Below are positions 1,856 through 36,499 of a stretch of 39,509 nucleotides of DNA, in pieces (position 1 is the stretch's first letter; every line of letters starts with the position of its first letter). Position numbers and translations under genes: made by a program. The notes beneath the pieces were generated by a model, which did not search any database, was not told the origin of the DNA, and saw only the letters and a program-made list of their open reading frames with translations. Origin of the DNA: a virus; the IMG/VR virus record IMGVR_UViG_3300001918_000034, positions 1 through 39,509 of that record. The stretch is one strand, 5' to 3'.

Positions 1856-3389
1856 GCACCGACTCCTCGCTCAGCTCGTAGCGTCCGGCCAGCTCCGCGG
1901 CCGCGAAGGCCATCGCCATCACCTCGCCCAGCTGATCCTTCGACAGCTCGCCGTAGGCCTCACGCAGCTGTGCGCGCAAGTCTTCCAGCGACTCGGCGCG
2001 CTGCACGATGGCCTCGACCTGGTCGAGCACGGACTCCCACGCGGGCGCAGCGTCGCGGGAGAGCGTCTCGGCCTGCAGGGCGGCGGCATCGGCCTCAGTG
2101 CTCTCGCGGTTCAGCGCCCGATTGATCGCGGGCGCGGTCGGCGCGGCCGGCGCCCTCAGTAGCACGCCCTTCGGGTCCGGATCGGGCAGCCCCAGCTTGT
2201 CGCGGATGACGCTCTGTTCCACTTCCAAACCCAGCGGCACCAGCCTCGTGAGTGCATCGACCAGTGCCGCCACGTCTTCCGGCTGCGGCACCTGCACCAC
2301 CAGCTTGGGATAGCGCCCCGGCCCGAAGTTGAGGTCAACGAACGGCCGCACGAACTGCCGGTTGAGCGTGTTCTGCAGTGCGTTGGCGTCGGCCTCCAGC
2401 AGGTCCATGCGGACCTCGTTGTGCACCTTCGCTTGAGCCATAGACCCGCCGTCGTCGGAGGTCATGGTCTGGCCCAGCACGCCCTTGCTGATCTGCTTGT
2501 CCCACCAGTTGGTCAGGCGCTCGAAGAAGTCGGCGGCGCCCGCCACGTTGGCAGCCTGCTCGAACTCGATCCGGGTGCTGTCAGGCAGCACGGCCGCGGC
2601 ATCGCTGCCGAGGTTCGCGACTGCTGCCATGAGCTTGCTGATATCGGCCTTGCTGGCGCCCGGCCCGTAGCGGCCGACGCGCATCGGCAGCCCGAAGATA
2701 TCGGCGAAGGCCATCCAGTCGCGCCAGCTCCAGGCCTTGCACATGTAGCCGGGCGCGGCGAGGCGCGCGAGTCCGCCGCGGATCGGCAGCCCGGCGCGAA
2801 TGCGCGGTCGGTGCACCACGAACTTGTAGGGCGCCAGCTGCAGCCCTTCGGCTGGCGCGGTTGCGTCGAGCAAGCGCAGTTCCTGGCCGGTCTCGCGGTC
2901 ATAGCGGAACCACCTCGGATCGCGGTGCTTCAGGCTCTTGGGGCGCCACTCGCGTCCGCTGGAATCCCACAGGATCTCGACCACGCTGTACGCCTTGCCC
3001 AGCGCATCGGTCAGGTCGGAGACCGCTTCGCCGAACATCGGGTCATCCACCAGCTCGCGCACCGCATCCGCGATGCGCACGTCAGCCTTGTCGTCGCTGA
3101 GTGAGTCCACGCGAATCTTGAGGCTGCCCAGCGCCAGCTTGCGCGTGCCCAGCACCGAGGCGTAATGCAGGTCGCGCTCTTCCATCTCCTCGGCCAGCGT
3201 CAAGTAGGCCGTCGCCTCGCCTTGCGCGGCGTCTTCGAGGATGCGGGCGAGCTTGCCCGGCGTCAGCCCCGTGGCCTCGCTCGGGTGCCAGACCTGCCGA
3301 ATGCCGGTGAGGCCGCCCGCGGCGACCTCTTCCTTCAGCACGTCGTATTCGATGGGCTGGCCGTCCGGGCCGAGAATGCGTGACTTCAT
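1848..3389 (-). CDS. Mu gp29-like portal protein (DUF935)
   Basis: 513-residue portal of the DUF935 family, the ring at the capsid vertex through which DNA is packaged by the terminase and to which the tail joins. Seen: the opening MKSRILGPDGQPI and the segment GLTPGKLARILEDA typical of the family, a central KHRDPRWFRYDRETG block, and the block KGVLGQTMTSDDGGSMAQAK preceding the C-terminal helices. Length is normal for Mu-like portals. It sits directly after the large terminase (3-base gap) and overlaps gpF by 8 bases, the standard Mu late-gene order. No sign of truncation. Confidence 0.92.
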   Translation of the reverse strand: MKSRILGPDGQPIEYDVLKEEVAAGGLTGIRQVWHPSEATGLTPGKLARILEDAAQGEATAYLTLAEEMEERDLHYASVLGTRKLALGSLKIRVDSLSDDKADVRIADAVRELVDDPMFGEAVSDLTDALGKAYSVVEILWDSSGREWRPKSLKHRDPRWFRYDRETGQELRLLDATAPAEGLQLAPYKFVVHRPRIRAGLPIRGGLARLAAPGYMCKAWSWRDWMAFADIFGLPMRVGRYGPGASKADISKLMAAVANLGSDAAAVLPDSTRIEFEQAANVAGAADFFERLTNWWDKQISKGVLGQTMTSDDGGSMAQAKVHNEVRMDLLEADANALQNTLNRQFVRPFVDLNFGPGRYPKLVVQVPQPEDVAALVDALTRLVPLGLEVEQSVIRDKLGLPDPDPKGVLLRAPAAPTAPAINRALNRESTEADAAALQAETLSRDAAPAWESVLDQVEAIVQRAESLEDLRAQLREAYGELSKDQLGEVMAMAFAAAELAGRYELSEESVRG

Positions 3390-12768: not shown

Positions 12769-13937
12769 GCCACACCTCCGAACGCGCCCTTGGTGACCTT
12801 CGGCGCGCCCAGCTCAGCAGCAGCATTCATCGCGCCCGCCAGGGCGTTGTGCACCGCTAGCGGGTACAGCAGTGATCCGCGCTGGCGGCCCTGTGCCGGC
12901 GTCAGTCGCGCGCGCAGCGCTTCGAGGCCCGAGGCATCGACCACGTCGGCGAGCTTCACTCCGGCGCGCTGAAAGCGGTGCTGCAGGTAGGCCTCCAGGT
13001 GCTGATCGAGCGGCGCGAGCGGCACCAATTCAATCCGCTGCACCACCTCGCGCACGCCCGGGTCTTGCTCGTTGAGCTTCAGCGCCAGCTCGGGCTGGCC
13101 CAGCAGGATCACGCTCATGAGCGGCTTCATGCCGTCCTTGAGTTCGAGGTAGCGCTTCAGGTGCTTCAGGGTCGGCACCGGCAGGCAGTGCGCCTCTTCG
13201 ATCAGCAGCACGTGGCGCGCGCCGGTGCGGTGGCTGTCGCGCAGTACCTCGTGCAGCTGGCGGAAGCGCGCCTCGGGGCTGCTCATGGTCTTCGAGAGCG
13301 GCGCGACCGCGCGCACGATCGCCTCGGCGATGTGCTGGCTGCGCAGGGTCTTGCCCACACTGTCCTTGTCTTCCATCGCGAGCACGTAGGGCTGCACCAG
13401 GATCGTGCCGGGCGCTTCGGCCTGAATGCGCTCGACCAGCTCTTCTCGCAGCGTGCTCTTGCCGGCGCCGGACTCGCCGACCACTGCCAGGAATCCACCG
13501 TGCCGGCACACGCTCCACATCGCCTCGCGCACATACCGCGCATCGGGGCTCAGGAACACGTCAGCCGGCTCGCGGCATTCGGCGAAGGGGTCGCGGGCCA
13601 GGTGGAAGTGCTGGCGCGCCGCAGGGGTGAGGGATTGCTTTCGCAGTAGCATGTCGGGGTCCTCGTTTGTGGTCTCAGTCGGGGTTACAGCGGGGGCAAC
13701 CGGCCCTGTCGCGTTGGCGCGCGGCAGGGCCTTCTTGAACGCGTCGGCGGCCGGTAAGCCGCGCGACACCAGGAACGAACGAATCGAGCTGCGGAGCTTC
13801 TTGGCGGTCTCGGCGCCCTGCGGCCACTGGCCGTTGCAGAGGTTTCCGATCAGGCTCTTGCCCACGCCAACGGCGTCAGCGGCTTCGCGGTAGGAGATGC
13901 CGGCCTCTGCCAGCACCTGTTTCAGCACCAGGCTCAA
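12765..13937 (-). CDS. B: Mu B-like AAA+ ATPase (target-DNA binding, transposition)
   Basis: 390-residue ATP-dependent DNA-binding protein that in Mu selects target DNA and stimulates the transposase. Seen: an N-terminal helix-turn-helix of about 60 residues (SYREAADAVGVGKSLIGNL), an AAA+ module with Walker A GESGAGKS (154-161), Walker B HVLLIEEAH (242-250) and sensor segment SVILLGQPEL (275-284), and a C-terminal helical part. The AAA+ module is close in style to ExeA/TniB-type ATPases. TTG start (13935-13937) overlaps the transposase stop as TTGA. About 80 residues longer than Mu B (312) because of the linker after the HTH. Confidence 0.9.
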   Translation of the reverse strand: MSLVLKQVLAEAGISYREAADAVGVGKSLIGNLCNGQWPQGAETAKKLRSSIRSFLVSRGLPAADAFKKALPRANATGPVAPAVTPTETTNEDPDMLLRKQSLTPAARQHFHLARDPFAECREPADVFLSPDARYVREAMWSVCRHGGFLAVVGESGAGKSTLREELVERIQAEAPGTILVQPYVLAMEDKDSVGKTLRSQHIAEAIVRAVAPLSKTMSSPEARFRQLHEVLRDSHRTGARHVLLIEEAHCLPVPTLKHLKRYLELKDGMKPLMSVILLGQPELALKLNEQDPGVREVVQRIELVPLAPLDQHLEAYLQHRFQRAGVKLADVVDASGLEALRARLTPAQGRQRGSLLYPLAVHNALAGAMNAAAELGAPKVTKGAFGGVA

Positions 13938-15742
13938 GCCGCACCTCCCACCAGGCGCAGGCCGCCGCGAAGTAGCGCGGTGGCGCAGGCATCGAGCTCC
14001 TCCTCCATCACGCCGTCAGGCCAGCGCTCGGCCATCTGCGCGAAGAGCGCGGCAGACCAGGTGCCGCCGAGCGCTTCCACCCGGCGCTTCAGGCCGCGCG
14101 CCATGTCCTCGTGCGACAGCACCTGTGCCTGCCAGACGGGATTGATCTGCGGCAGCCGCGGCGCGGGCTCGACCTCGGCGGGTGCTGCGACGGTGCTGGG
14201 CGTTGAGGCGCGCGGCAGCGCCGGCACCACCTCCAGGTCGCGGCTCGGCTTCAGCGGGTCCACGGTGCCGCCGAAGGCCAGGCGCTTCGTCTTGCGCGCT
14301 GCGGCTGCCTCGGCGTCGCTGGCCACGCCCATCGCCAGACGATCGATCTCCTTGCGGGCAGCGTCGGTCGGCGTCTCAGGCGGTGCGCGGAAGTTCTCGC
14401 CGATGGTCGCTGCGCCCAGCTCGAAGCCGTACTCGCCGGTGCGAATCTCAGGTGCCAAGTAGTAGCCAGGGCGACCGTCGTCGGCGGTCACGACAACCCG
14501 CAGCGTGGTGGGGTCGAGCGCGTTGATCACCACCTCGACCTGGGCGCCGTTCAGGACGCCCGGCAGACCGGTCAGGTCCCACATGCGGCCGCCGTGCTTG
14601 ACGCGGTAGTCGCGCACCCGGCGCGGCACCGGCACCGTCGTCGCCAAGGCGCGCAGGGTCTCCACCTTCGGCGCCTCGATCAGCTGCTCGCGGGTGATGC
14701 GAAGCCAAGCATCGCGGCGCGTTGTTCCGGTGCGGCTGTGGATCGCGGTGGCGTTGAAGTTTCGCGCGAACTCGGCCGCCAGCCGGTTGATCTCTTCCAG
14801 GCTGGTCACCGGGGCGCGCAGCTTCAGGGCCGCTTCGAAGCTGCGCTCCCACAGGTATTGCGCGTTCTCGACCTGGCCCTTGGCGCGGGCGTTGCCCACC
14901 TCGTTGATGATCAGGTTGATACCCAGCGCAGCGCACAGATTCGCCGTGACTTGGCTCTTCATTGCGCTGCCGGGGTCGGCCATCAGGTGCCGCGGAACGC
15001 CGTGCATGGTGCCGTCCGCGCGGCGCGTCATGGCGTGGATCAAGGTGGCTAGCACGTTGGCGCTGCTCTCAGCCCCGCGCACGTACAGCACCTCCAGCGC
15101 GCCGCTGGCGTGGTCGGTGACCACGTAGCGCCATAGCCGGTACTCGTTGATCGCGACCAGGTTGCCGGGCTTGCCGCGGTAGAACTCGCGCTCGGGCATT
15201 ACCCGCATGCCGTCGTCGGCCAGGTAGAACTGCCGGCTCACCGAGGCGTCGATCTGCCAGCACCAGTTGGGGTGCGGGCTCTGCAGGCGCGCAGCTGGCG
15301 TGGGCTCGGCCAACTGCTCGGGGTGCATGTTGTAGTGGCGCAGCGCGCGGCGGATCGCGCTGACACTCAGCGGCGTGAACTCGCCAGTGTCGGTGTCGAC
15401 GCGGCCGGCCGTGATGCGCCCGTTGCTGCGCAGAATGTCGACCGCGTGTTCGAGGGCCAGCGCGCCGGTACCCGTCAGGCGCCTGGTCTCTTCAACGGTC
15501 GCGGCGATCAGGGCCGCTTCGTCGCGGCTGAGTGCATGGCCGCCCGCGTCGGCGCGGCGCTTGCGGGGCGCACCGACCCGCACCAGCTTCAGTCGCTGAT
15601 GCAGGGTCGCGAGCGAGCAGCCCATGCGCTTGGCTGCCGCCTCATAGACGCGGGACTTGCCGCCGTGGCCAGCCGCAGCCGCCTGGCGGGCGACTTCTGC
15701 CAGCTCCTCCAGCAGGGCGGGCGAATGGACGGCGGCCATCAT
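13934..15742 (-). CDS. A: Mu A-like DDE transposase
   Basis: 602-residue transposase that pairs the phage ends and catalyses strand transfer for integration and replicative transposition. Seen: N-terminal DNA-binding helices (residues 9-60), and a DDE core with D165 in WQIDAS, D256 in MADPGSA and E292 in KGQVENAQ. A Mu-type beta-barrel follows the core, and the C-terminal region is probably the B-contact part. ATG at 15742 overlaps the upstream stop by one base (TGATG). Shorter than Mu A (663), mainly at the N-terminus. Its expected binding sites are seen at the right phage end (36901-36948). Confidence 0.94.
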   Translation of the reverse strand: MMAAVHSPALLEELAEVARQAAAAGHGGKSRVYEAAAKRMGCSLATLHQRLKLVRVGAPRKRRADAGGHALSRDEAALIAATVEETRRLTGTGALALEHAVDILRSNGRITAGRVDTDTGEFTPLSVSAIRRALRHYNMHPEQLAEPTPAARLQSPHPNWCWQIDASVSRQFYLADDGMRVMPEREFYRGKPGNLVAINEYRLWRYVVTDHASGALEVLYVRGAESSANVLATLIHAMTRRADGTMHGVPRHLMADPGSAMKSQVTANLCAALGINLIINEVGNARAKGQVENAQYLWERSFEAALKLRAPVTSLEEINRLAAEFARNFNATAIHSRTGTTRRDAWLRITREQLIEAPKVETLRALATTVPVPRRVRDYRVKHGGRMWDLTGLPGVLNGAQVEVVINALDPTTLRVVVTADDGRPGYYLAPEIRTGEYGFELGAATIGENFRAPPETPTDAARKEIDRLAMGVASDAEAAAARKTKRLAFGGTVDPLKPSRDLEVVPALPRASTPSTVAAPAEVEPAPRLPQINPVWQAQVLSHEDMARGLKRRVEALGGTWSAALFAQMAERWPDGVMEEELDACATALLRGGLRLVGGAA

Positions 15743-20152: not shown

Positions 20153-21235
20153 ATGGACCTAATTGATCGGCTGCGAGACCTCGCAGCGCGTGCGAACCGC
20201 CTGGCGGCGAGCATTCAGACCGAAGAGGCGTGCAAGAACGCTTTCATCATGCCGATGCTCGGCGCGCTGGGTTACGACGTCTTCAACCCCGAGGAGGTGG
20301 TGCCGGAGTTCGTTGCCGACGTCGGCATCAAGAAGGGTGAGAAGGTCGACTACGCCGTGCGCAAGGACGGCAAGATCATCATGCTCATCGAGTGCAAGTG
20401 GAACGGCAAAGCGCTGGTCATCGAGCATGCCTCGCAGCTCTTCCGCTACTTCGCGGTCACCGAAGCGCGCTGCGCCATCCTGACCAACGGCCTCGTCTAT
20501 CAGTTCTATACGGACATCGACGAGCCGAACAAGATGGACAAGCATCCGTTCTTCGTCTTCAACCTGCTCGACTTCAACGAGAGCCACGCGGATGAGCTGC
20601 GCAAGTTCACCCGCGAAGCATTCGATATCGGCAACGTCATCGGCGCGGCAGGCACGCTGAAGTACACCAACCAGGTCAAGAAGATCCTGGCCGAAGAGTT
20701 GGCAAAGCCGTCCGAGGAGTTCGTGCGCCTGTTCGCCTCGCGCATCTACGACGGCCGCATGACGCAGGCTGTGCGCGAGCAGTTCGAGGGCATCGTGCAG
20801 CGCTCGTTCGCGGACTTCATCCGCGAGCGCATCAGCGACCGCCTGAAGAACGCCCTGCGCGAGGACGCAGCACCCGGCGCGCTGATCGATCCGCTGCCCG
20901 ACGGCCGAGCGCTGTCGTCCACGGCGCCGGCCGAAGAGGTTTCGGACATCGTGACCACCGATGAGGAGCGCGAGGGCTTCAACATCATCCGCGCCATCCT
21001 GCGCGAGGTGGTGGATGCGAAGCGCGTGGTGATGCGCGACGCCAAGTCTTACTGCGCGATCCTGCTCGACGACAACAACCGCAAGCCGATTGCGCGCCTG
21101 CACTTCAACGCGCAGAGCAAGCGCTACGTGGGCCTGTTCACCGACAAGGTCGAGGAGCGCGTGGAGATCAGCTCGCTGGACGATATCTTTGCACTGGCGC
21201 CGAGGCTGAAGGCGACTGCCTCTGAGTACAGTTGA
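20153..21235 (+). CDS. stand-alone PD-(D/E)XK protein, type I restriction HsdR N-terminal-like
   Basis: 360-residue protein of the solitary HsdR_N-type family. Seen: FIMPMLGALGYDVFNPEEVVPE (residues 31-52), then the nuclease core D66 (KVDYAV) and E80-x-K82 (LIECKW), followed by LFRYFAVTEARCAILTNG, typical of the family. The C-terminal half contains an acidic linker and a beta-rich domain (RLHFNAQSKRYVGLF). No HsdM/HsdS or helicase motor is encoded nearby, so it is not a complete type I system. Such orphans are frequent in prophages and mobile elements. A defence role against incoming DNA is plausible but not shown. Confidence 0.85.
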   Translation: MDLIDRLRDLAARANRLAASIQTEEACKNAFIMPMLGALGYDVFNPEEVVPEFVADVGIKKGEKVDYAVRKDGKIIMLIECKWNGKALVIEHASQLFRYFAVTEARCAILTNGLVYQFYTDIDEPNKMDKHPFFVFNLLDFNESHADELRKFTREAFDIGNVIGAAGTLKYTNQVKKILAEELAKPSEEFVRLFASRIYDGRMTQAVREQFEGIVQRSFADFIRERISDRLKNALREDAAPGALIDPLPDGRALSSTAPAEEVSDIVTTDEEREGFNIIRAILREVVDAKRVVMRDAKSYCAILLDDNNRKPIARLHFNAQSKRYVGLFTDKVEERVEISSLDDIFALAPRLKATASEYS

Positions 21236-21385
21236 CGACTCAAGGACTGTTGACTATCCGCTGCACCTTGTAGGTGGTGCTAGCGACCTCGCTCGACGCG
21301 CACGCTGCAGGAATTCGGACCGAGCGCCAGGCCCTAAGCAAAAAACTTCAACCAACCAAGAGTTGCACAGAGAAACGGAGTGGGC

Positions 21386-22282: not shown

Positions 22283-23254
22283 ATGCACCGCATAACCACC
22301 CTCGCTCTCTGCACCGAACTCGGCCTGCTCGCCGCTGGCGACGCGCCGGGTGTTCCGGGTGCCATCCCACTGATTCCGGCCGGCCCCACCGTGCGGGGGC
22401 GCGATGGCCGCGAGTGGACCTTCGACCAGCCTTCGATTGACGCCGTTCTGCAGGCCTTCGAAGCGCGCGGCGTCGAGCTGCCCATCGATTGGGAACACGC
22501 CACCCAGCACCGCGCGCCGCGTGGCGAGGCCGCGCCCGCCGCTGGCTGGATCACTGCGCTCAATGTGCGCGGCGGTGCCCTGTGGGCTGACGTGCAGTGG
22601 ACCGACCGCGGTCATGACCAGGTGCTGGCCCGCGAGTACCGCTACATCAGCCCCGTCTTCGACTTCGATCCCAACACCGGCCGCATCGTGCGGCTGGTGT
22701 CTGCCGGGCTGACCAACACGCCCAACTTGCCGCTGCAAGCCCTCAACCAGGAGCAACCCATGAAGCTCAGCCTGACCGCCGCCCTGGCGGCCGCCCTTGG
22801 CGTGTCCGCCGATGCCGATGAAGCCACCGCCCTGACCGCCATCGAGTCGCTGAAGACCGCCACCAACCGCGAGGCCACCAACCTGGAGCGCTACGTGCCG
22901 CGCGCCGATTACGACCAGGTGCTGCAGCGCGCGACCAACGCCGAGCAGCAGCTGCTCCAGCGCGACACGGTTGCGCACAAGACGGCCGTCGACGCGGCGA
23001 TCGAAAGCGCGCTGCAGGCTCGCAAGATCGCCCCGACCTCGGTCGATTACCACCGCGCCAGCTGCAGCGATCGTAGCGGCTTGGAGCGCTTCCAGGCTTT
23101 CGTGGCCAGCGCACCGGTCATCGCCCCGGACGCGGGCATCGAGGGTCCGCCGCCGGGCGCTACCAAGACCGCGCTCAACGCCGAGCAGCAGCAGGCCGCG
23201 CGCCTCCTGGGCCTGACGCCCGAGGAGTACGCGAAGCGCCTGCCCACCGACTGA
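22283..23254 (+). CDS. I: Mu gpI-like head maturation protease
   Basis: 323-residue Mu prophage I protein, the protease that processes scaffold and itself during head assembly. Seen: the opening ITTLALCTELGLLAAG and IPLIPAGPTVRGRDGREW, the ELPIDWEHATQ motif (His near residue 73) and AREYRYISPVFDFDP (Ser near 121), both conserved in the family, then a linker and a C-terminal helical scaffold region. First gene of the rightward structural operon; the usual upstream gene G lies 22 kb away. A hairpin occupies the bases directly before the ATG. Confidence 0.92.
   Translation: MHRITTLALCTELGLLAAGDAPGVPGAIPLIPAGPTVRGRDGREWTFDQPSIDAVLQAFEARGVELPIDWEHATQHRAPRGEAAPAAGWITALNVRGGALWADVQWTDRGHDQVLAREYRYISPVFDFDPNTGRIVRLVSAGLTNTPNLPLQALNQEQPMKLSLTAALAAALGVSADADEATALTAIESLKTATNREATNLERYVPRADYDQVLQRATNAEQQLLQRDTVAHKTAVDAAIESALQARKIAPTSVDYHRASCSDRSGLERFQAFVASAPVIAPDAGIEGPPPGATKTALNAEQQQAARLLGLTPEEYAKRLPTD
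22760..23254 (+). CDS. Z: internal in-frame start: scaffold protein Z
   Basis: ATG at 22760 inside I, same frame, preceded by an excellent SD (AGGAG, 5 bases upstream of the ATG). Product of 164 residues (MKLSLTAALAAALG...) corresponding to the C-terminal scaffold part of I. Mu expresses its scaffold Z in exactly this way. The scaffold would guide capsid assembly and be removed by I. Confidence 0.82.
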   Translation: MKLSLTAALAAALGVSADADEATALTAIESLKTATNREATNLERYVPRADYDQVLQRATNAEQQLLQRDTVAHKTAVDAAIESALQARKIAPTSVDYHRASCSDRSGLERFQAFVASAPVIAPDAGIEGPPPGATKTALNAEQQQAARLLGLTPEEYAKRLPTD

Positions 23255-23318
23255 TGCCTCGCGACTCGCGAGCACCGCGCCCCCACGCGCCCCACCACGC
23301 AACCGCTAGAGGCTCCTC

Positions 23319-24215
23319 ATGGCTCTCATCACCAATGCACTGATTACGGCCCTGTTCCAGGGCTTCCGCGGCGAGTTTCAGGCCGCCTTCGATGCCACGC
23401 CCACCGACTGGCAGAAGGTGGCGACGATGGTGCCCAGCACCACCGCCGGCAACACCTACGGCTGGCTGGGTCAGTTCCCGAGTCTGCGTGAGTGGATCGG
23501 CCCGCGTGTCATCAAGGACATGCAGGCAGACGCCTACCAGATCCTCAACAAGACCTTCGAGGCGACGGTCGGTGTGAAGCGCACCGACATCGAAGACGAC
23601 AACCTCGGCATCTATCGCCCGCTGTTTGCCGAGATGGGCCGCGCCTCGGCGTCGCACCCGGATGAGCTGATTTTCGCGCTGCTGGCTGCCGGTGGCAGCA
23701 CGCTCTGCTACGACGGCCAGAACTTCTTCGACACTGATCACCCGGTCTATGCGAACACCGATGGGACCGGTGCTGTCACCCCGATCAGCAACGTCAACAC
23801 CAGCGGCAGCGGCCCCAACTGGTACCTGCTCGACGTGAGCCGGCCGCTGAAGCCGCTGATCCTGCAGGTGCGCGCGAAAGCCGACCTGCAGGCGATGACC
23901 GACCGCAACGATGAGGGCGTGTTCACCAACGACGAGTACCGCTACGGCGTTCGAGCCCGCCACAACGCCGGCTTCGGCTTCTGGCAGATGGCCTACCGCA
24001 GTAACCAAGCGCTGACGCCCGAAACCTACGGCGCCGCGCGCGCTGCGATGCGGGCCTTCAAGGCCGATGGCGGTCGCCCGCTGGGCATCCGGCCGAACCT
24101 GCTGGTGGTGCCTTCCTCGCTCGAAGGCGTCGCCCGGAAGATCGTGGTGAAGGACGAGGACGGCGGTAACGAGTGGGCCGGCACTGCCGAAGTGTTGGAC
24201 AGCGACTGGATCTGA
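23319..24215 (+). CDS. T: Mu gpT-like major head protein
   Basis: 298-residue major capsid subunit of the Mu gpT family. Seen: MALITNALITALFQGFRGEF, then YGWLGQFPSLREWIGPRVI and DDNLGIYRPLFAEMGRASA with the typical GQNFFDTDHPVY motif (residues about 130-142). Good SD (GAGG) before the ATG. It follows I by 64 bases that include a small hairpin (CTCGCG-ACT-CGCGAG, 23258-23272). A strong hairpin after T probably sets its relative abundance. Confidence 0.94.
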   Translation: MALITNALITALFQGFRGEFQAAFDATPTDWQKVATMVPSTTAGNTYGWLGQFPSLREWIGPRVIKDMQADAYQILNKTFEATVGVKRTDIEDDNLGIYRPLFAEMGRASASHPDELIFALLAAGGSTLCYDGQNFFDTDHPVYANTDGTGAVTPISNVNTSGSGPNWYLLDVSRPLKPLILQVRAKADLQAMTDRNDEGVFTNDEYRYGVRARHNAGFGFWQMAYRSNQALTPETYGAARAAMRAFKADGGRPLGIRPNLLVVPSSLEGVARKIVVKDEDGGNEWAGTAEVLDSDWI

Positions 24216-24238
24216 TCCCAACTCTCACCGACTGATCC

Positions 24239-24266
24239 GGCCGGCGGCGCGTGAGCGTCGCCGGCC
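24239..24266 (+). terminator. hairpin / possible attenuator after major head gene
   Basis: 11-base-pair stem GGCCGGCGGCG / CGTCGCCGGCC with one G-U pair and a 6-base loop, between T and the next gene, no proper T-run. A partial terminator or an RNase-protecting 3' hairpin would raise T expression over downstream genes. Confidence 0.5.
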
Positions 24267-24280
24267 TTCAGGAGACACCC

Positions 24281-24733
24281 ATGTCCCAGCGCTTCTTCCG
24301 CACCCGCACGGCTGCACACGCGCGCTACTTCCGCGGCGGCATCCAGTTCGGCCCGCAGGCCACTGCGGTGCCGGCCAACCATCCGCGCATCGAGCTGCTG
24401 CTCGCTGACCCGCACCTGGTCGAGGTCGCGGACAGCGCAGAGCGCGAGGACTCGAACACCCCGCAGAGAGAGGGCGATGCGTCGCGGTCTGACGCGACAG
24501 CCTCCCGCAGCCGTGAGTCGACGGCTGCGGGCGGTAAGCCCACCTCGGAGGCGACGCCGGAGGGCTCGACCACCTCCGGAACCGCTGGCGGCGTTCCCCC
24601 CGACGTCGACAGCGGTAGCCGTGGCGAGGGCGCCGGACACGGGCCGGTCGCACCGGTCTCCAGCGCCCCAAGCCGAACCACCAAGACCCCTGCCGCGAAG
24701 GCAGTTGCCAAGCCCACCAAGGCGAAGGTCTGA
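24281..24733 (+). CDS. Mu gp35-like protein with low-complexity tail
   Basis: 150-residue protein at the gp35 position. Seen: an N-terminal domain of about 55 residues (RFFRTRTAAHARYFRGGIQF, then HPRIELLLADPHLVEV) resembling the small N-terminal domain found in Mu/FluMu gp35-type proteins, followed by a disordered Ser/Thr/Gly/Ala tail ending in a Lys/Ala-rich stretch. SD GGAG before the ATG. Function in virion assembly unknown. Confidence 0.72.
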   Translation: MSQRFFRTRTAAHARYFRGGIQFGPQATAVPANHPRIELLLADPHLVEVADSAEREDSNTPQREGDASRSDATASRSRESTAAGGKPTSEATPEGSTTSGTAGGVPPDVDSGSRGEGAGHGPVAPVSSAPSRTTKTPAAKAVAKPTKAKV

Positions 24734-24736
24734 TCC

Positions 24737-25258
24737 ATGTATGTGACGCCCGCCCAACTCTCGACCGGAGCCGGTGCCAGCCTGGAGCTGGCCCAGCTCT
24801 TCGAGCTGCCGCTGGAGCTGTGGCAGCTGACGCTTTCGGGCGGCGATCGCAGCGCCTACAGCGCAGCAGAGATCGACGCGGCGGATGCGGCGCTGGCTGC
24901 GGTGCTCGACGCCTGCGAACGCGCCGGCGGCGAACTTGAGGCTTACCTCGCGCAGCGAGGCTATGAGCTGCCGCTGGACCTTGCGGCCTTCCCGGTGCTC
25001 GGCACCTGGGGGCGAGCGATCGCCCGCTACCACGTGCACCTGTCTCGCGAGCGCGCCAGCACGGAGCTGGGCCGCATCGAGCGCGACTATCGCGAGGCGC
25101 GCGCGGCATTGGAGCGAGTTGCCGCTGGCCAGCTCAGCCTGGGCGCCAACGATCCACTGGCGCCCGGCGACTCGGACCCGGATGCCGAGGACACAGGGCC
25201 GATTCGCTTCACTTCGAAGCCGCGCCTGTTCTCGCGCCACAGCCTGGACGCGCTGTGA
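24737..25258 (+). CDS. Mu gp36-like head-tail connector (DUF1320)
   Basis: 173-residue DUF1320 protein. Seen: the family opening MYVTPAQL, AEIDAADAALAAVLDACERA, YLAQRGYELPL and a helical ARYHVHLSRERASTELGRIE with RDYREARAALERVAAGQLSL. Homologous proteins are head-completion adaptors. It is translationally coupled to the next gene (GTGA overlap). Confidence 0.88.
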   Translation: MYVTPAQLSTGAGASLELAQLFELPLELWQLTLSGGDRSAYSAAEIDAADAALAAVLDACERAGGELEAYLAQRGYELPLDLAAFPVLGTWGRAIARYHVHLSRERASTELGRIERDYREARAALERVAAGQLSLGANDPLAPGDSDPDAEDTGPIRFTSKPRLFSRHSLDAL

Positions 25259-25695
25259 GCTTTCCCACGGCCTCAGCGATTGAGCGGCTGCAGGGCGTCA
25301 GCGCGCTGAAGTTGATCGGCGACGCAGCGGACCTCGCCACCGCGATCGCGCAGAAGCCGCGAGCGGCGCCGGCCGCGTATGTGGTGCACCAGCGCCAGGG
25401 TGAGCCGCCGATCGGCGTGAGCAATGGCGTGCTGCTGCAGAACATTCGCGTGAGCCTGCAGGTGGTGCTGTTCGTCAGCCATGCCGGCACCGTCGAGTCG
25501 GGCTCTGCAGCCCGCCGCGTGATGGATGCCCTGCAGGCCGATATCGACGCGCGCCTCATGGGTTGGAGCCCGGACAGCTTCACGCGCTTCGGCGCGCTGC
25601 ACTTCGTCGGCGCGCGCGACGAGTTCTACGCCACCGGCTGGCTCTGCAGTCAGGTGATCTACGAAACCAAGTACCGAGCGGAGGTTCGCCAGTGA
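25255..25695 (+). CDS. Mu gp37-like protein (DUF1834 / tail terminator type)
   Basis: 146-residue protein, GTG start overlapping the gp36-like stop. Seen: SAIERLQGVSALKLIGDAAD, LLQNIRVSLQVVLFVS, then DALQADIDARLMGWSP and VGARDEFYATGWLCSQVIYE. The size and position of a gp37/tail-terminator protein, which caps the tail and joins it to the head. GTGA overlap with the next small gene. Confidence 0.8.
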   Translation: MSFPTASAIERLQGVSALKLIGDAADLATAIAQKPRAAPAAYVVHQRQGEPPIGVSNGVLLQNIRVSLQVVLFVSHAGTVESGSAARRVMDALQADIDARLMGWSPDSFTRFGALHFVGARDEFYATGWLCSQVIYETKYRAEVRQ

Positions 25696-25931
25696 ACGCC
25701 CTTCCCATGCCGCGCGACGGCGGCAGCTACCGCCGCGAGCCAGACGGCAGCCTGACTTGCCTACAACCCACAACGGCCGACGCCGGTTCGGTAGGCACCC
25801 CCAGCCAGCACGTCGAGGGCGAAGTGGAGGTTCTCGACCTGGCTGAGCAAACCCACGACGGCAGCGCCACCGCACTGCCGCCCATCGAATCCGCGCCGCG
25901 CCGGCGCACCAGCGCCCGTACGAAGGAGTAA
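25692..25931 (+). CDS. small tail-region protein, disordered
   Basis: 79-residue protein with GTG start overlapping the previous stop (GTGA). Opening MPRDGGSYRREPDGSLTCLQ (from residue 6) is a motif seen in short proteins at the gp38 position of other Mu-like phages; the rest is low-complexity Glu/Thr/Pro/Ala with a basic end. It may be an accessory of the tail tube gene that follows 3 bases later. Confidence 0.62.
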   Translation: MNALPMPRDGGSYRREPDGSLTCLQPTTADAGSVGTPSQHVEGEVEVLDLAEQTHDGSATALPPIESAPRRRTSARTKE

Positions 25932-25934
25932 CCC

Positions 25935-26864
25935 ATGCCTTTCCGCAGTTCTGAAGATCGCGTCGGCCTGCTGGCCATCGAGACCACCTACGGCGTCGCC
26001 GCCACCATCACCGCCGCGAACGCACTGCTGCTGATGAACAGCAGCATCGAGCCTGCTGCCGACAAGCTGGAGCGTGCGGTTGATCGACCGTACTTCGGCG
26101 GCGACCCCTTCGTCCTGGTCGGGAAGCGCATCACCTTCCGTGCCGAAGTGGACCTCATCGGTGCGGCTGCAGCGGGCACTGCCGCGCCCCTGTCTGCGTT
26201 GCTGCGCATCTGCAGCCACAGCGAGACGCTCACGCCCACCACCAGCGCGGTCTACGCTCCGATCAGCACGGGCGTGCCGAGCGGCACCTTCGACTTCTAC
26301 TGGGCAGGCATTCGCTTCCGCATGCTCGGCGTGCGCGGGTCGATGGACATGACCTTCAACATCCGTGAGTACGCCAAGGCCAGCGTGCAGCTCACCGGCT
26401 TGCTGGTGATCCCGCAGGACGGCGAGGCGCCTGTCGGCATCGACTGGTCTGCCTTCCAGACGCCGCCTGCGATCGAGACCGAGACCTGGAACTGCCAGGT
26501 CGGTGGCACGGCGGTCCACGCTCGCCAGCTGAGCCTGAACGCCAACGCGACCATCCCGCTGATCGAGACCAGCGAAAGCCGTCAGGTCATCGTGACCGAT
26601 CGCAAGCCGGCCGGCAGCCTGCAGGTGGTCAAGAACGATCTGCTCTCGGTCTGGAACCCGTGGGCGCTGGCGGATGCGCAGAGCGTCGTCACCATCACCA
26701 ACACCATCACGCGCTCGGCCGGTTTGAACGTCGCGGTGCCGATCCGCGCCCAGCTCGAATACCCGCGGCCGATCGACATCGAGGGCGTCGCTGGCTTCGA
26801 GATCCCCTTCACCGCTGTGCCCAGCGGTGCCGGCGGCGACGAGTACTCGATCACCTACACCTGA
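25935..26864 (+). CDS. tail tube (major tail) protein of a siphovirus-type tail
   Basis: 309-residue major tail protein. Seen: PFRSSEDRVGLLAIETTYGV and LMNSSIEPAADKLER at the N-terminus and beta-rich sections throughout, with FDFYWAGIRFRMLGVRGSMD and AFQTPPAIETETWNCQVGG. Homologous in style to tube proteins of B3/D3112-type Mu-like phages with flexible tails. No tail sheath gene follows, in contrast to Mu (gpL), so the tail is non-contractile. A strong hairpin follows the gene. Confidence 0.83.
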   Translation: MPFRSSEDRVGLLAIETTYGVAATITAANALLLMNSSIEPAADKLERAVDRPYFGGDPFVLVGKRITFRAEVDLIGAAAAGTAAPLSALLRICSHSETLTPTTSAVYAPISTGVPSGTFDFYWAGIRFRMLGVRGSMDMTFNIREYAKASVQLTGLLVIPQDGEAPVGIDWSAFQTPPAIETETWNCQVGGTAVHARQLSLNANATIPLIETSESRQVIVTDRKPAGSLQVVKNDLLSVWNPWALADAQSVVTITNTITRSAGLNVAVPIRAQLEYPRPIDIEGVAGFEIPFTAVPSGAGGDEYSITYT

Positions 26865-26897
26865 TCCACCGCACTCAGCGGACCGACCGCGACATCC

Positions 26898-26926
26898 GGC
26901 GGCCGCGCGCGATCGCGGCCGCCTTT
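26898..26926 (+). terminator. terminator/attenuator after the tail tube gene
   Basis: Perfect 10-base-pair stem GGCGGCCGCG / CGCGGCCGCC (26898-26907, 26914-26923), 6-base loop, then TTT. It lies between the tube gene and the chaperone gene in one operon, so it probably acts as a partial terminator that keeps tube protein abundant. Confidence 0.68.
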
Positions 26927-26946
26927 CCCCAAGCACGAGGACCGAC

Positions 26947-27360
26947 ATGCTCAAGCTCACCCAGACCAGCACCTTCGCCACCACCGTCAAGGTGCGCCTG
27001 CCCACCGACAAGCCGGGCGTATTCAACGAGGGCGACTTTACTGCTCGCTTCAAGTTCGTCGAGCCGGACAAGTTTCTGGAGTTCGTCGACGGCGTGCGCG
27101 AGGTCGGTGAAGTGGATGACCACGGCAACCGCCAGCTGGCCACCACGCTGGAGATCACTCAGTACCAGCGCGAGGTGCTGGGCCAGGTGCTGGAAGGCGT
27201 CGAGGGCATCGGCGACGGCCACGGGACGGCCTTCGAACCGGAGAAGCAGAAGGAGATGGTGTTCGCACACCTGACGCTCCTGCAGGCGACGTTCGATGCC
27301 TTCTTCAGCGGCTATCGCGCAGCCCCGGCAAAAAACTCGAAGCGGTCGCCGAAGCGCTGA
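26947..27360 (+). CDS. tail assembly chaperone, short form (G-like)
   Basis: 137-residue protein preceding the tape measure, the position of lambda gpG. Seen: beta-rich N-terminus (MLKLTQTSTFATTVKVRLPT), then VEPDKFLEFVDGVREVGE and helical TLEITQYQREVLGQVLEGV. Near its end, at 27330-27336, lies a canonical slippery heptamer; ribosomes that do not slip stop at 27358-27360. Confidence 0.82.
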   Translation: MLKLTQTSTFATTVKVRLPTDKPGVFNEGDFTARFKFVEPDKFLEFVDGVREVGEVDDHGNRQLATTLEITQYQREVLGQVLEGVEGIGDGHGTAFEPEKQKEMVFAHLTLLQATFDAFFSGYRAAPAKNSKRSPKR

Positions 27361-27695
27361 GCGGCGGCCGCAAGTCGATCGATACCAAGGGCATCGCCGA
27401 ACAGCTGAGAGCGTTCGGCGCACCCGCTGAGGTGATCGCCCGCGTCGAGGGCACACCTCAGAGCAACAAGGTGGGCGTGCTGCCCTGCAACTGGCTCGCG
27501 GTGCGCATCTACCGGGCCTGCCAGTGGACCCTGCTGATGGGCTACGGCGCAGCGATGTGGCAGGGCATTTCTCAGTCCGAGCTGCGATCTGCGCTGCTGG
27601 TGCATCGGGTGCCAAGGCAGAGCTGGGAAGACGTGAGCGATCGGGTGGCGAGTCTGGTGGCAGCAGCGCGGCCACTGCTCAACGCCAAGCGATGA
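26947..27695 (+). CDS. tail assembly chaperone, frameshifted long form (GT-like)
   Basis: Predicted fusion product of 249 residues: 130 residues of the short form, a -1 slip at A-AAA-AAC (27330-27336), then 119 residues in the -1 frame starting LEAVAEALSGGRKSIDTKGI and containing LPCNWLAVRIYRACQWTLLM and ending at the TGA 27693-27695. The -1 frame has no SD/start of its own immediately after the junction. In lambda the GT form binds the tape measure while G binds the tube. Arrangement, signal and position all agree. Confidence 0.82.
27330..27371 (+). promoter_or_regulatory. programmed -1 ribosomal frameshift signal
   Basis: Slippery heptamer A-AAA-AAC in the correct phase (zero-frame codons GCA AAA AAC), 5-base spacer (27337-27341), then a 9-base-pair stem GCGGTCGCC / GGCGGCCGC (27342-27350, 27363-27371; one G-U pair) with a 12-base loop containing part of the zero-frame TGA. 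This is the textbook layout of tail-chaperone frameshift sites. Confidence 0.87.
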
Positions 27696-27726
27696 GAACG
27701 CCGACCCCGGCCAAGTAGGAGAGCCC

Positions 27727-30700
27727 GTGGCAGACCAGACCGTAACCCTTCGCATGACGATGAACGCCGATGGCGTCGGCGCGGGCGCCGGCCAGGCGCG
27801 TGATGCGATCGGCAGCATCGGTCCTGCTGCGGAGGCGACATCGGATCGCGCGACGCGGGCGATGGATCGCACCGCCCAGGGCGCGGACTTCCTCACGGCG
27901 CAGATCAGCAAGGTGCGCAACGAGGTGCTCGCGCTCGGCGCCGCCTGGGTGTCGATCGAGGGCGTCCGCGAACTCGCAGGAGCCGCGGATGCCTACTCCG
28001 ACATGCAGGCACGCATCCGCCTCGTCACCGATACGCAGGCCGAGTTCTCGCGAGGCCAATCCGAGGCGTTCCGCGTCGCGCAGGACACCTCCTCGCAGCT
28101 CGAAGCTACGGTCGGGCTGTACACGCGGTTGGACCAGGCCTTGGAGGATGTTGGCTCCGGCCAGGCGGAGGTCCTGCGGATCACCGAGACGGTCAACAAG
28201 AGCTTCGCGGTCTCCGGCGCGAGTGGTGGCGCGGCAGCGGGTGCGATCACCCAGCTCGGCCAGGCATTCGCCGCAGGTGCGCTGCGAGGCGACGAGTTCA
28301 ACTCGGTGAATGAGGCCGCGCCGAGATTGATGCAGGCGGTCGCTGCGAGCCTGGGCGTCACGCGGGGCGAACTGAAGGCATTGGCCGATGATGGTCAGCT
28401 CACCGCTGATGTGTTGCGCAAAGCGCTCACCGGCGACCAGGCCGATGCGATCGCCGAAGAGTTCGCCCAGCTGCCGCTGACCATCGCGCGCTCGATGCAG
28501 CAGCTGAAGAACGCTGCGGTGCAGTTCATCGGCGAGTCCGACCAGACCTTCGGCGCATCGCAGGCGGTGGCCAGCGCGATCCAGCTCGTCGCGCAGAACC
28601 TGGACCTACTGGCGGAAGTGACCCTCGCAGCTGCCGTGGTCTACGGCGCCCGCTTCCTGCCGGCGCTGCTGCCCTCGGTGGCCACGCTGAAGGCGGTGTC
28701 AGCCGCGATGGTGATCGCCACCACCAGCGCCAGTGGCTTCGCGATCGCAAGTCGCACGATCGGCGCAAGCCTGCTCACCCTGGTCGGCGGCCCTGTGGGC
28801 GTGGCTGTGCTCGCAATCGGCGGCCTGGCGCTGGGAATCAAGGCAGCGATGGATGCCGAAGAGGCGCGCGATGCCGCGTTCAAGGCCGGCGTCGACTCGG
28901 TGGAGCAGTCGACGGAACGTGTGCGCGAACTCAACGGCCAGTGGCAGCAGTACTCGTCGCTGCGCCGGCCGGATGTGGCCACGTCGATCGCAGCGTTCGC
29001 GCGCGAATCGGAAGAGATCCGCGCGAACCGGATCGAGCTGGAGCGGCTGACCGAGACCTATCGCGACCTGATCAACAACGCGGGCCTCGTCGCAGGCGAC
29101 GTGAACAGCACGGAGACCGCCCAGCGTTGGCGGGAGCTGACCGAGCGCATTGCCGAGCATGACCAGCAAAGCGCGCGCCTCGCCGACACCTTGCGCCAGC
29201 AGCTTGCCCCTGAGCTGGATGCACTGCAGGCATCGATTGATCGCCTGGCCGACTCCGATGGGGTCAGCTCTGCTCTGGACGGCATCGCCGAGGCCTATGG
29301 CGCGTTGCTGGGCCTTTCGAGCCGGATCGCAGCGGACGCCAAGTTCGACGACCTGTACCAACAGATCACCGAGGGCTCCGAAGCCGCGTCGACGGCGCTG
29401 GAGAAGGCCCAGCTCGGCGTGGTGGGCTATGCGCAAAAGCTGGCCTCTGAGTTCGTCACCACCGGCGTAGCCACGGGCCGCAGCCGATCGGAGGTCGAAG
29501 CGCTTGGCGCCGAGTACGTGCGCCTGGTCGAGCAGCTGGAGGCCACTCGCACCGCGCAGCAGCGCGCAGCCAACGAGACGCGCCGCGCCACCACTGAGGC
29601 AGCCAAGGCGCAACGCGAGCTGGAGCAGGCGAACCGTCGCTCGGCGCAGGCCAGCACTGAACTCTCCAAGATCCTCGACCGACAGGCCATCGCGCTAGGC
29701 GGCCCCGGCGTGGCGGCAGCCATCGCGTACCGCGATGAGCTGACGCAGCTGCTCGATATCGAGCGGACCCTGGCAGCGACCAATAGCCTCTCTGCCGAGG
29801 CTGTGGCGGGGCTTGCGCAGGCCCGCGACAACGCAGCAAGGGAGTTCACGAAGAACCTCGAGGACGCCGTCGAGCAGAGCCAGGAGGCCACGCGCTCGGT
29901 TGAAGACGTGCTGGCAGACCTCGCCGACACGCCGCTGAACCGCCTGCTGCAGGACATCGAGCTTGTTGGCGATGCGCTTGAGCTGGCGCTGGCGGGCAAG
30001 GGGACGCAGTCGGTCGAGGAGCTGCGAGCAGCGATGGCTGAGCTGCAGGGCTACCTTGATGAGATGCGCGGCTCGCTCGGTGCCGGCATCGTGGAGGCGA
30101 CTTCCGAGGCACTTCGCGGCATGCAGTCGCTCACCAAGAACGGCAGCGATGCCTTCAAGGCGATGCAGGTGGCCATCGACGCGTTGGCGCTCGTGCAGGG
30201 CATTTCGGCGATTCTCAACCAGGGCACGGGTGACCCGTACTCCGCACCGGTCCGCATGGCGGCTATGGCAGCGGCGATCGCGCCTCTCATCGCGAATCTG
30301 GCCGGCAGCATCGGCGCCTTCGGTGGATCGAGCGGCTTCACCGATACGGCGCGTATCCGCCAGGAGAGGCAGGGCACCGGCACGGTCCTGGGCGACGAAG
30401 CGGCCAAGTCGGAGTCGATCCTCAACGCGACGGAAATCACCGCCGACGCGACGTCGGAACTGGTGGGCATCAACCGCGGCATGCTGCGCGCTCTGCAGCA
30501 ACTGCAGAGCGGCATTGACTCGGCGGGCGGCATGCTGGCGCGAGGCGCAGGCGCAGTTGAGTTCAGCTGGCCGCGCGACACCGAGCTCAATGAGGTCGGC
30601 TGGGGGCGCTTCTTGTCCCGCTTGGGCGACCCGATCTTTGGCACCGGACTGCTGGGGCGCTTCCTCGGTGGCTCTTCGCGCGTCACGGATCAGGGCTTGG

Positions 30701-33225
30701 CGCTTGGCGGCGGCAGCCTGGGGAACATCGACGTACGCGCCTACGAAGAGCAGCAGTACCGCAGCTGGAGATTCGGCAGTCGCCGGACGCGCGAGCAGTT
30801 CGCACCCGTCGGGGAAGAGTTCGAGAACCAGTTCCAGCTGATCATCAACTCGCTGGTCGAGACGGTGCGCCAGGGCGCGCTTGCTCTCGGCATGCTGCCC
30901 GAAGACATCGAGGACGCGCTGGAGCGCTTCCGCTTGGAGGAGATCCGAATCTCCCTCAAGGACCTGACACCCGAGGAGAAGCAGGCGGAAATTCTCGCGG
31001 TCTTCAGCTCGATCTTCGACAACCTCGCGGGTGACGTAGTCCCCTATGTATCGCAGTTCCAAAGGCTGGGCGAAGGCTTGGGCGAGACGCTGGTCCGCGT
31101 GGCGACAGGCGTCCAGGTCACACGCGAAGCGCTTGATCGCCTCGGCTTCTCGTTGGACGCGGCCAGTCCGGAGCAATTCGCGCAGATCAGCGAGGGCCTC
31201 ATCGAGCTGAGTGGCGGTATCGAAGAGTTCCTCTCGGGCATGGCGTCCTTCATGGACAACTTTGCCCCCGAAGGCCGCAAGTTCGAGCTGCTACAGAGCG
31301 ACCTCACCCGGGCGCTCACTGAGGCTGGCCTGGCTTTGCCTGCGACCCGCGAGGGCATGTGGGCGCTTATGCAGAGCCTCGATGCGACGACGGAGAGCGG
31401 CCGCGAGCAGATTGCGACGCTGCTGCGGCTGTCGGGCACGGCGGATGCCTACTACACGCTGCTCGAAGACCGGCAGGAGAGTGCGGCCGAGGCGCTCGAA
31501 GCGCAGCTTCAGGCTGCCCAGGACTATCGGAACCTGGTCGCGGAGCTGAGCGACGAGCTGACCTCGGCAGGCATGAGCGACTTCGCGCGCGAGATGCGCG
31601 ATATCGACCGCTGGGCGGCTGACGCCCGCGAGGCCCTTCACGAGGCGGCCCGGGCTGCTGGCATGCAGGCCGCTGCGGAAGAGGACCTGGCGCTCGTGCA
31701 CCAGATCGCCTCGCAGCGCGCGGCCGCGGCGATCGCTCGCCTGCGGCAGGCGGCGGCCGACCTCGTCCAGGATCTGTATGGCTCGCCGCTCGACGATATC
31801 GACGCGCAGATCCGCGAGATTGAGGAAGCCCAGCGCGCCAGCACCGACAGCCAGATCGGCAGCATCTCGGAAGTCGGCGACGCCGCACGTGGCGTCTACC
31901 AGGCGCAGCTGTCAGCGCTGCAGAACATCCGCGCCTGGCTGGACAGCCAGCTGCTGGGCGACACCTCAAGCCTTACGCCTGAGCAGCGCCTGGCCGAGGC
32001 ACGTCGACAGTTCGACGAAGCCGTCGCGGCCGCTCAAGGCGGTGACGTCGACGCATTGCAGCGGGTCACTCAGCTGGCTGACCTGCTGCTGCGCGAGGAG
32101 CGCGACTTCAGCGCCAGCGGGCAGCAATTCACGGACACGGAAGCCTATATCCGGGCGCGGATGCAGGGCCTGCTGGGGCTGCAGCTCACAGACCCGGGCA
32201 CCGGCAGCACGGGCGGCGGCGCTGTAGGCGCTGGCCTTGGCGCGCCCTACGTCTCTCCGGAGCTACAGGCGCTCTACGAACAGCGCGATGCGCTGCTCGA
32301 TGAGCAGTTGGCGGCGCAGCGCGAGGAAATGGTCCGCGAGCTGGGTCTGATGGTGCGCGAGTTGATCGAGCGCACCGGCGAGCCTCTGGCAGAGGTCGCG
32401 CAAACCATCGGGCTGAACCTCACCGCGTTGGCTGCTGACCTGGGCATCAACCTGGAAGAGCTGAGCGCGGAGACGGCCGTCAGCTTGACTGCCCTGGCGC
32501 GGCAGCTGGGGGGCGATGTTGCCGAGCTGGCCACCAACGTTGGCATCGAGCTGGGCGACCTCGCGGACCGGCAGTCGTTGCTCAACCAGGCGCTGGATCA
32601 GACCCTGCAATCGATCCCTGAGGAGTTCCGCACCCAGCTGGCAGCACCGCTCGATGCCATCCGGACTGCCACCACGGATGCCGATGCAACCGCGGCTGTC
32701 GAAGACGCGGAAAGGGCAATCAGCGCCATGCCTCCGGCGATCCGCGACATGCTCGCGCCGTTCTTCGCCGGCATCGCGCCGCCTCCAGTGATCAGTGAGC
32801 TGAGCACCCTGCGGGACATCAACGCGACGGCGACGGCGCAGCTCGTCGAACTGGGCGCCATCCGCCTTGCGATCGAGGCGATCGGCCGCCGCAATCTGCC
32901 CGAGGGCGTTGGCGGCCTCGATAGCTTCGACGTTGGCACTGCCTTCGTGCCGCGCACCGGCCCGGCACTGATTCACCGCGGTGAAACCATCCTGCCCGCC
33001 GCGGTGGCGGACTTTGCTCGTCGCTCTGGCCTGACGCTGGGGCCGGCGGGCGGCGACTCGGCCGCCGTGGTGGCAGAGCTGCGCGCTCTGCGCGAAGAGA
33101 ACAGCCGCGGCCAGCGCGCGCTGGAGACACGCCTCCAAGATCTGGAACGTGCGCAGCGCGAAGGCACGCGGGAGCTGACGGACGAGCAGCGCCGGGCCTA
33201 CGACCGCATGATGATGGGAGCTTGA
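27727..33225 (+). CDS. tail tape measure protein
   Basis: 1832-residue tape measure, GTG start with TAGGAG upstream. Seen: an N-terminal lambda-H/TMP-type region (residues about 55-260; ISKVRNEVLALGAAWVSIEG, GAITQLGQAFAAGALRGDEF), a hydrophobic section at about 295-380, long coiled-coil stretches (620-670, 1280-1330), and a C-terminal motif with AFVPRTGPALIHRGETILPA (around 1740-1760). At roughly 0.15 nm per residue this predicts a tail of about 270 nm, long for a Mu-like phage. Contains repeated LxELxxxVGIxLxxLAxxxx-like units near 1560-1620 (NLTALAADLGINLEELSAET, VAELATNVGIELGDLADRQS). Confidence 0.93.
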   Translation: MADQTVTLRMTMNADGVGAGAGQARDAIGSIGPAAEATSDRATRAMDRTAQGADFLTAQISKVRNEVLALGAAWVSIEGVRELAGAADAYSDMQARIRLVTDTQAEFSRGQSEAFRVAQDTSSQLEATVGLYTRLDQALEDVGSGQAEVLRITETVNKSFAVSGASGGAAAGAITQLGQAFAAGALRGDEFNSVNEAAPRLMQAVAASLGVTRGELKALADDGQLTADVLRKALTGDQADAIAEEFAQLPLTIARSMQQLKNAAVQFIGESDQTFGASQAVASAIQLVAQNLDLLAEVTLAAAVVYGARFLPALLPSVATLKAVSAAMVIATTSASGFAIASRTIGASLLTLVGGPVGVAVLAIGGLALGIKAAMDAEEARDAAFKAGVDSVEQSTERVRELNGQWQQYSSLRRPDVATSIAAFARESEEIRANRIELERLTETYRDLINNAGLVAGDVNSTETAQRWRELTERIAEHDQQSARLADTLRQQLAPELDALQASIDRLADSDGVSSALDGIAEAYGALLGLSSRIAADAKFDDLYQQITEGSEAASTALEKAQLGVVGYAQKLASEFVTTGVATGRSRSEVEALGAEYVRLVEQLEATRTAQQRAANETRRATTEAAKAQRELEQANRRSAQASTELSKILDRQAIALGGPGVAAAIAYRDELTQLLDIERTLAATNSLSAEAVAGLAQARDNAAREFTKNLEDAVEQSQEATRSVEDVLADLADTPLNRLLQDIELVGDALELALAGKGTQSVEELRAAMAELQGYLDEMRGSLGAGIVEATSEALRGMQSLTKNGSDAFKAMQVAIDALALVQGISAILNQGTGDPYSAPVRMAAMAAAIAPLIANLAGSIGAFGGSSGFTDTARIRQERQGTGTVLGDEAAKSESILNATEITADATSELVGINRGMLRALQQLQSGIDSAGGMLARGAGAVEFSWPRDTELNEVGWGRFLSRLGDPIFGTGLLGRFLGGSSRVTDQGLALGGGSLGNIDVRAYEEQQYRSWRFGSRRTREQFAPVGEEFENQFQLIINSLVETVRQGALALGMLPEDIEDALERFRLEEIRISLKDLTPEEKQAEILAVFSSIFDNLAGDVVPYVSQFQRLGEGLGETLVRVATGVQVTREALDRLGFSLDAASPEQFAQISEGLIELSGGIEEFLSGMASFMDNFAPEGRKFELLQSDLTRALTEAGLALPATREGMWALMQSLDATTESGREQIATLLRLSGTADAYYTLLEDRQESAAEALEAQLQAAQDYRNLVAELSDELTSAGMSDFAREMRDIDRWAADAREALHEAARAAGMQAAAEEDLALVHQIASQRAAAAIARLRQAAADLVQDLYGSPLDDIDAQIREIEEAQRASTDSQIGSISEVGDAARGVYQAQLSALQNIRAWLDSQLLGDTSSLTPEQRLAEARRQFDEAVAAAQGGDVDALQRVTQLADLLLREERDFSASGQQFTDTEAYIRARMQGLLGLQLTDPGTGSTGGGAVGAGLGAPYVSPELQALYEQRDALLDEQLAAQREEMVRELGLMVRELIERTGEPLAEVAQTIGLNLTALAADLGINLEELSAETAVSLTALARQLGGDVAELATNVGIELGDLADRQSLLNQALDQTLQSIPEEFRTQLAAPLDAIRTATTDADATAAVEDAERAISAMPPAIRDMLAPFFAGIAPPPVISELSTLRDINATATAQLVELGAIRLAIEAIGRRNLPEGVGGLDSFDVGTAFVPRTGPALIHRGETILPAAVADFARRSGLTLGPAGGDSAAVVAELRALREENSRGQRALETRLQDLERAQREGTRELTDEQRRAYDRMMMGA

Positions 33226-35728: not shown

Positions 35729-36499
35729 ATGAGCAAATCCATCATCCCCTGGCCAGGCGGCAAACGCCGTCTGCTGCCGACCCTCCTACCGATGCTGGAG
35801 GAGGTATCCCACAAGTGCTACTGCGAGCCCTTCGCGGGCGGCGCTGCCGTCCTCTTCGCCCGTGAGCCGGCATCGATCGAGGTGCTCAACGACATCGATG
35901 GCGAGCTGGTGCGCCTCTACCGCGTGGTTGCCGCCCACCTCGACGAGTTCATGCGGCAGTTTCGTTGGTCGCTGGTCAGCCGGGAGATGTACCGGTGGGC
36001 GCAGATGCGGCACCCGGACACCCTCACCGATATCCAACGCGCGGCTAGGTTCTGGTACCTGCAGAAGCTCGGCTTCGGCGGCAAGGTGCAGGGGCGCTCC
36101 CTGGGCGTGGGGCCGACCGCGGCGAAGCGGATCAACCTCCTGCGGCTGGAGGAGGAGCTGTCTGCGGCGCACCTACGCCTGCACCGGGTCACCATTGAGC
36201 ACCTGCCGTGGCAGGCCTGCGTGAGCCGCTACGATCGCCCCACGACGCTGTTCCTGCTCGACCCGCCGTATTGGGAAACCGAGGGCTACGGCGTCGACTT
36301 CGGCTGGGAGCAATACGAGGCCTTGGCCGACGTGCTGCGCACGCTCAAGGGGCACGCGATCCTGACCATCAACGACCACCCGCGCATCCGCAAGCTGTTC
36401 GATTGGTTGCCCCACGAGTTGGTCCCAATCCGCTACACCATCGGCGGCGGCGACGGCCCTGATCGGCGCGAAGTCATCTATCGAACTTGGTCGCGCTGA
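35729..36499 (+). CDS. DNA adenine N6-methyltransferase (Dam/D12 class)
   Basis: 256-residue D12-class methylase. Seen: N-terminal PWPGGKRRLLPTLLP, SAM-binding motif I CEPFAGGAAVLF (residues 31-42), catalytic motif IV LLDPPYWET (D-P-P-Y, about residues 178-182) and NDIDGELVRLYR. It methylates adenine, commonly in GATC, but target specificity cannot be read here. Complete and intact. It stands at the right end of the phage, where Mu carries its own DNA modification gene mom, so a role in protecting phage DNA from restriction is likely. Confidence 0.92.
   Translation: MSKSIIPWPGGKRRLLPTLLPMLEEVSHKCYCEPFAGGAAVLFAREPASIEVLNDIDGELVRLYRVVAAHLDEFMRQFRWSLVSREMYRWAQMRHPDTLTDIQRAARFWYLQKLGFGGKVQGRSLGVGPTAAKRINLLRLEEELSAAHLRLHRVTIEHLPWQACVSRYDRPTTLFLLDPPYWETEGYGVDFGWEQYEALADVLRTLKGHAILTINDHPRIRKLFDWLPHELVPIRYTIGGGDGPDRREVIYRTWSR

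Follow-up and report, generated by a model that had tools for sequence, protein, structure and literature searches.

The tail assembly chaperone of the Mu-like phage analyzed here is almost certainly encoded across a -1 ribosomal frameshift of the lambda G/GT type. The window (the whole stretch analyzed) is an IMG/VR virus record of 39,509 bases, and the features that lead to this assignment are the anatomy of its slip signal, the order of the surrounding genes, the conservation of the heptamer and of both frames, and the RNA structure downstream. The site is a further example of a known mechanism, since database records already note the shift in the related phages RcapMu and Smarc2. According to PMC5009743 and to Xu et al. 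2004 as cited in PMC4378225, the frameshift of lambda G/GT is established and widely conserved.

The 0 frame is a G-type tail assembly chaperone ORF of 137 amino acids (26947-27360, + strand) that begins with ATG downstream of a GAGGA, and its translation ends in AAPAKNSKRSPKR at the stop codon. Counted from this ATG, a slippery heptamer A_AAA_AAC (AAAAAAC; 27330-27336, +) lies in phase, and the 0 frame across it reads GCA AAA AAC TCG. It is followed by a 5-nt spacer, TCGAA (27337-27341, +), and by a putative stimulatory hairpin (27342-27371, +). The original prediction had placed the heptamer and spacer correctly and had also called the stem-loop, to which it gave 9 bp; folding gives one pair more, with 10 bp (27342-27351 with 27362-27371), a 10-nt loop, and a stability of -19.4 kcal/mol. 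The short form ends at a 0-frame TGA (27358-27360, +) after seven sense codons past the heptamer, while most relatives have none. The open -1 frame runs from 27118 to a stop at 27693-27695. Its T-type extension (27336-27695, +), which is assigned to the DUF1799 family and is predicted to be reached by frameshifting, comprises 119 amino acids plus the stop when counted from 27336. A slip on AAA AAC would produce a predicted fusion of 249 residues. Both of these lengths agree with those first proposed, and the accompanying reading of the product as a GT-type protein is supported by conservation and gene order.

Dinucleotide shuffles of the 243-nt overlap contain an in-phase RRRAAAC in 1.1% of cases and any XXX(AAA/TTT)N in 5%. 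The fold of the 35 nt at 27342 is matched in stability at only 0.6% of + strand positions between 20 and 36 kb. Because the window is 67% GC, shuffling the same 30 nt shows the hairpin to be only modestly unusual (z = -2.0, 12/200). An Rfam search returned no match, and a 124-nt stretch around the site with one substitution is not significant as a sign of suppressed substitution (P = 0.10). The sole other AAAAAAC in the window (21340-21346, +) is intergenic to the predicted genes and has no frameshift context. Taken alone, the window sequence is suggestive of a frameshift signal, and the assignment becomes firm once conservation is added.

Both frames sit between the tail tube and tape measure genes, which is the position of lambda G and T. 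The tube gene (25935-26864, +) has a weak match to Phage_tube_2 (E = 2.9e-4, below the cut-off), corresponds to phrog_290, and is homologous to annotated tail tube proteins; the tape measure gene (27727-33225, +) is identified by a profile match to TMP_3 and encodes 1832 amino acids. These two genes belong to a Mu-like set that also includes a portal, a protease, the major head protein gpT, Gp36, and a tail terminator. An ORF with an integrase core (rve; 13934-15742) has an AAA ATPase as its neighbor, as in transposable phages, and may encode the transposase. The Mu-type portal (1848-3389, -) and the integrase-core ORF are opposite in strand to the protease, capsid, and tail genes (22283-33225, +). 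This layout is probably not an assembly error, since two near-identical contigs also carry portal and chaperone on opposite strands. The window further contains an ORF with a type I restriction R-protein N-terminal domain (HSDR_N; 20153-21235, +) and a D12-class adenine methyltransferase (35729-36499).

The near-identical contigs share 97-99% identity with the window. More divergent relatives in a Pseudoduganella prophage, a Gemmatimonadaceae bin, and an Alcaligenaceae genome (37%, 34%, and 35% identity in the -1 part, respectively) keep A_AAA_AAC at the same junction, and DUF1799 (PF08809) is matched by their -1 parts. Neither half of the window had a match as query in the collection of named phages, which were reached by way of relative L008 and of the genes for tube and tape measure; a viral scan with the G-part alignment as query recovered the near-identical contigs alone. 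For a broader survey, DUF1799 loci were gathered whether or not they had a slip site; the sources were named phages together with 299 genomes of the Pseudoduganella phylum, 369 of its class, and 200 of the phylum of the Gemmatimonadaceae bin. Both ORFs are present at 53 loci, or 47 clusters at 80% identity, with VW-6B (L019) left out for its different chaperone arrangement.

An in-phase heptamer joins the two ORFs at all 53 loci and in all 47 clusters, as AAAAAAC (A_AAA_AAC) in 32 clusters and GGGAAAC (G_GGA_AAC) in 15. Conservation of the heptamer in homologues had been named as a check on the original prediction and is borne out by this survey, in which the window's signal is typical of its family; to call it unusually perfect was an overstatement. 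The sole DUF1799 locus without a junction heptamer (L076:1-960) has no upstream chaperone ORF either. It is likely a rearranged prophage remnant, because it is abutted by an antisense ORF that, we presume, resembles a Mu F-type head protein. Across the surveyed loci, which are not independent of one another, the 60 nt past the heptamer are among the most stable 10% of their neighborhood in 58% of cases, and the main stems of many relatives often begin 6-8 nt past it. An L-x-A-A-R-type start of the -1 part directly past the heptamer is kept family-wide.

The three near-identical genomes differ by substitutions that change frame at the heptamer. Before it, 25 of 27 substitutions fall at third positions of the 0 frame; past it, 12 of 16 fall at third positions of the -1 frame (Fisher P = 1.3e-6 for the switch). 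The switch is bounded by 27324 and by the first -1-frame wobble changes past 27393. This pattern of wobble changes suggests that both frames are translated.

Membership of the window's -1 part in the DUF1799 family (PF08809, phrog_680) is supported via relatives, by sequence similarity. The window -1 part itself has no Pfam match and a weak one to phrog_680 in a PHROG profile search (E = 2.8e-4). The -1 part of relatives L007/L008, which is 37% identical to it (E = 2e-15), matches PF08809 (E = 1.2e-17) and phrog_680 (E = 2.9e-19). The window G part matches nothing in Pfam, PHROG, or NCBIfam. Among the G parts of relatives, Phage_TAC_4 (PF08748) matches that of L009 above the cut-off (E = 1.4e-11) and that of L008 just under it (E = 5e-4), and PF08809 adjoins in nine of nine genomes that bear PF08748. 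In phrog_17368 (213 positions), G parts match the start of the profile and T parts its end, so this family appears to represent the joined form. The fold predicted for the -1 part has low confidence (mean pLDDT 68.6), and no PDB match was found by fold or profile. Both phrog_680 and phrog_569 are labeled 'tail length tape measure protein', as are entries in several named phages (e.g., L061 and L063), but what these PHROGs match is the chaperone, in its frameshift extension and its G part.

If the second frame were instead an independent gene, it could be translated from its own GTG (27432-27434, +), which gene callers would choose. The original prediction expected annotators to call the second half separately, and in relatives the two frames are indeed annotated as separate genes (RcapMu49/50, Lsp-JY19, VarioGold). 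A functional independent start was among the outcomes that had been set against the frameshift, but this GTG has no ribosome-binding site, while such sites are present before 26947 and 27727, and it lies inside a conserved block, QLRAFGAPAEVIA, that begins upstream of it in the -1 frame. Starting at 27432 would lose this conserved sequence, since the residues QLRAFGAPAE precede the GTG in frame, and the family-wide L-x-A-A-R-type start directly past the heptamer also speaks against the GTG. Independent translation would also leave the conservation of the heptamer in 47 of 47 clusters without a reason, and we consider it very improbable.

The six A residues of AAAAAAC could also permit slippage by RNA polymerase, in which case the fusion would come from altered mRNA rather than from ribosomes. 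GGGAAAC, which lacks a long homopolymer, occupies the same place in 15 of 47 clusters, and hairpins follow the site at ribosomal spacing, which together make transcriptional slippage even harder to credit than a separate gene. Finally, the chance of 1-5% obtained by shuffling leaves some room for a heptamer that lies beside two overlapping frames by coincidence. This is refuted by the family-wide conservation of the heptamer together with the switch in substitution frame, and its probability is negligible.

Under the ribosomal frameshift that we favor, most ribosomes would terminate at 27358-27360 and yield the 137-residue G-like form. A minority would pause at the hairpin while tRNA-Lys and tRNA-Asn occupy AAA AAC, slip backward by a single base onto AAA AAA, and read on to 27695, yielding the 249-residue GT-like form. 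The roles may follow those in lambda, with a G part that coats the tape measure and an extension of the DUF1799 family that recruits tube subunits in tail polymerization. In E. coli, A_AAA_AAC is less slippery than A_AAA_AAG (PMC5009743). That slippage takes place in vivo is inferred, and its rate and the division of labor between the two forms are likewise presumed.

A stop codon in the 0 frame directly after the heptamer is a common feature of the family. It is the next codon in 37 of 47 clusters (27 TGA, 5 TAA, and 5 TAG) and lies no more than one codon past the heptamer in 41 of 47. Loci with an adjacent stop are found within L016-L080 (e.g., L055:1399-1408 and L053:1498-1507). Elsewhere, 12% of -1-frame CTN leucine codons create a stop of this kind. 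The rare AGR codons occur in four of the six cases in which arginine is the next -1 residue (background 5.9%), and the rare CTA occurs in four of the six in which the next codon starts with G (background 6.5%). This rare codon usage suggests that the adjacent stop is selected rather than a by-product of the amino acid sequence. The window is one of ten exceptions; CTC replaces CTG here, so that the stop is lost and the short form is extended by SKRSPKR.

According to work cited in PMC4373837, -1 shifting in E. coli is reduced when a stop stands at such a place, an effect that is sensitive to RF2 and was interpreted as slippage in the E and P sites. Phages may use the adjacent stop for tuning the ratio of the two forms. 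It is conceivable, though we lean against it, that competition by release factor at this stop sets the ratio, and that the window lineage and a few others that lost the stop rely on the heptamer and hairpin alone. A clean ending of the short form is a simpler reason for the adjacent stop. The pattern seems to be new; a literature search found no paper on it, which is not proof of novelty. If the adjacent stop tunes frameshifting via release factor, then this could be tested directly in a bacterial system that occurs in nature.

These results give an uncultivated Mu-like phage a well-supported frameshift. They also show that, wherever both ORFs were found, DUF1799 forms the frameshift extension of the chaperone; this family has no assigned function and often bears a tape measure or hypothetical label. 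Many phage annotations could be corrected on this basis. The VarioGold paper lists the chaperone and DUF1799 separately and leaves the shift unmentioned.

The window resembles lambda gpG/gpGT in that the genes lie between tail tube and tape measure, encode a short G and a long GT form, and are joined by a -1 slip near the end of G. The 0-frame tail past the heptamer is short in both (five codons in lambda and seven in the window). The lambda heptamer is G_GGA_AAG rather than A_AAA_AAC, and the likeness is one of layout, with no protein similarity claimed. Rhodobacter phages RcapMu (49/50) and RcWaterboi (47/48) also resemble the window, as Mu-like siphoviruses with the same gene order and a DUF1799 -1 part, and the 'potential -1 frameshift' noted in the RcapMu record coincides exactly with the GGGAAAC of that phage; unlike the window, both have G_GGA_AAC with a stop codon immediately next. 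Leptolyngbya phage Lsp-JY19 shares the site (A_AAA_AAC TCA AAG CGG, with the 0-frame tail KNSKR), and its -1 part is 36% identical to that of the window over 78 amino acids. However, its stop lies five codons past the heptamer, its portal and tail genes share one strand, and its TAC and next ORF are annotated as separate genes. Serratia phage Smarc2 has a TGA immediately past the heptamer, which the window does not, but it carries the same type of DUF1799 -1 part across A_AAA_AAC, and its record joins the two as a 'pre-tape measure frameshift protein'.
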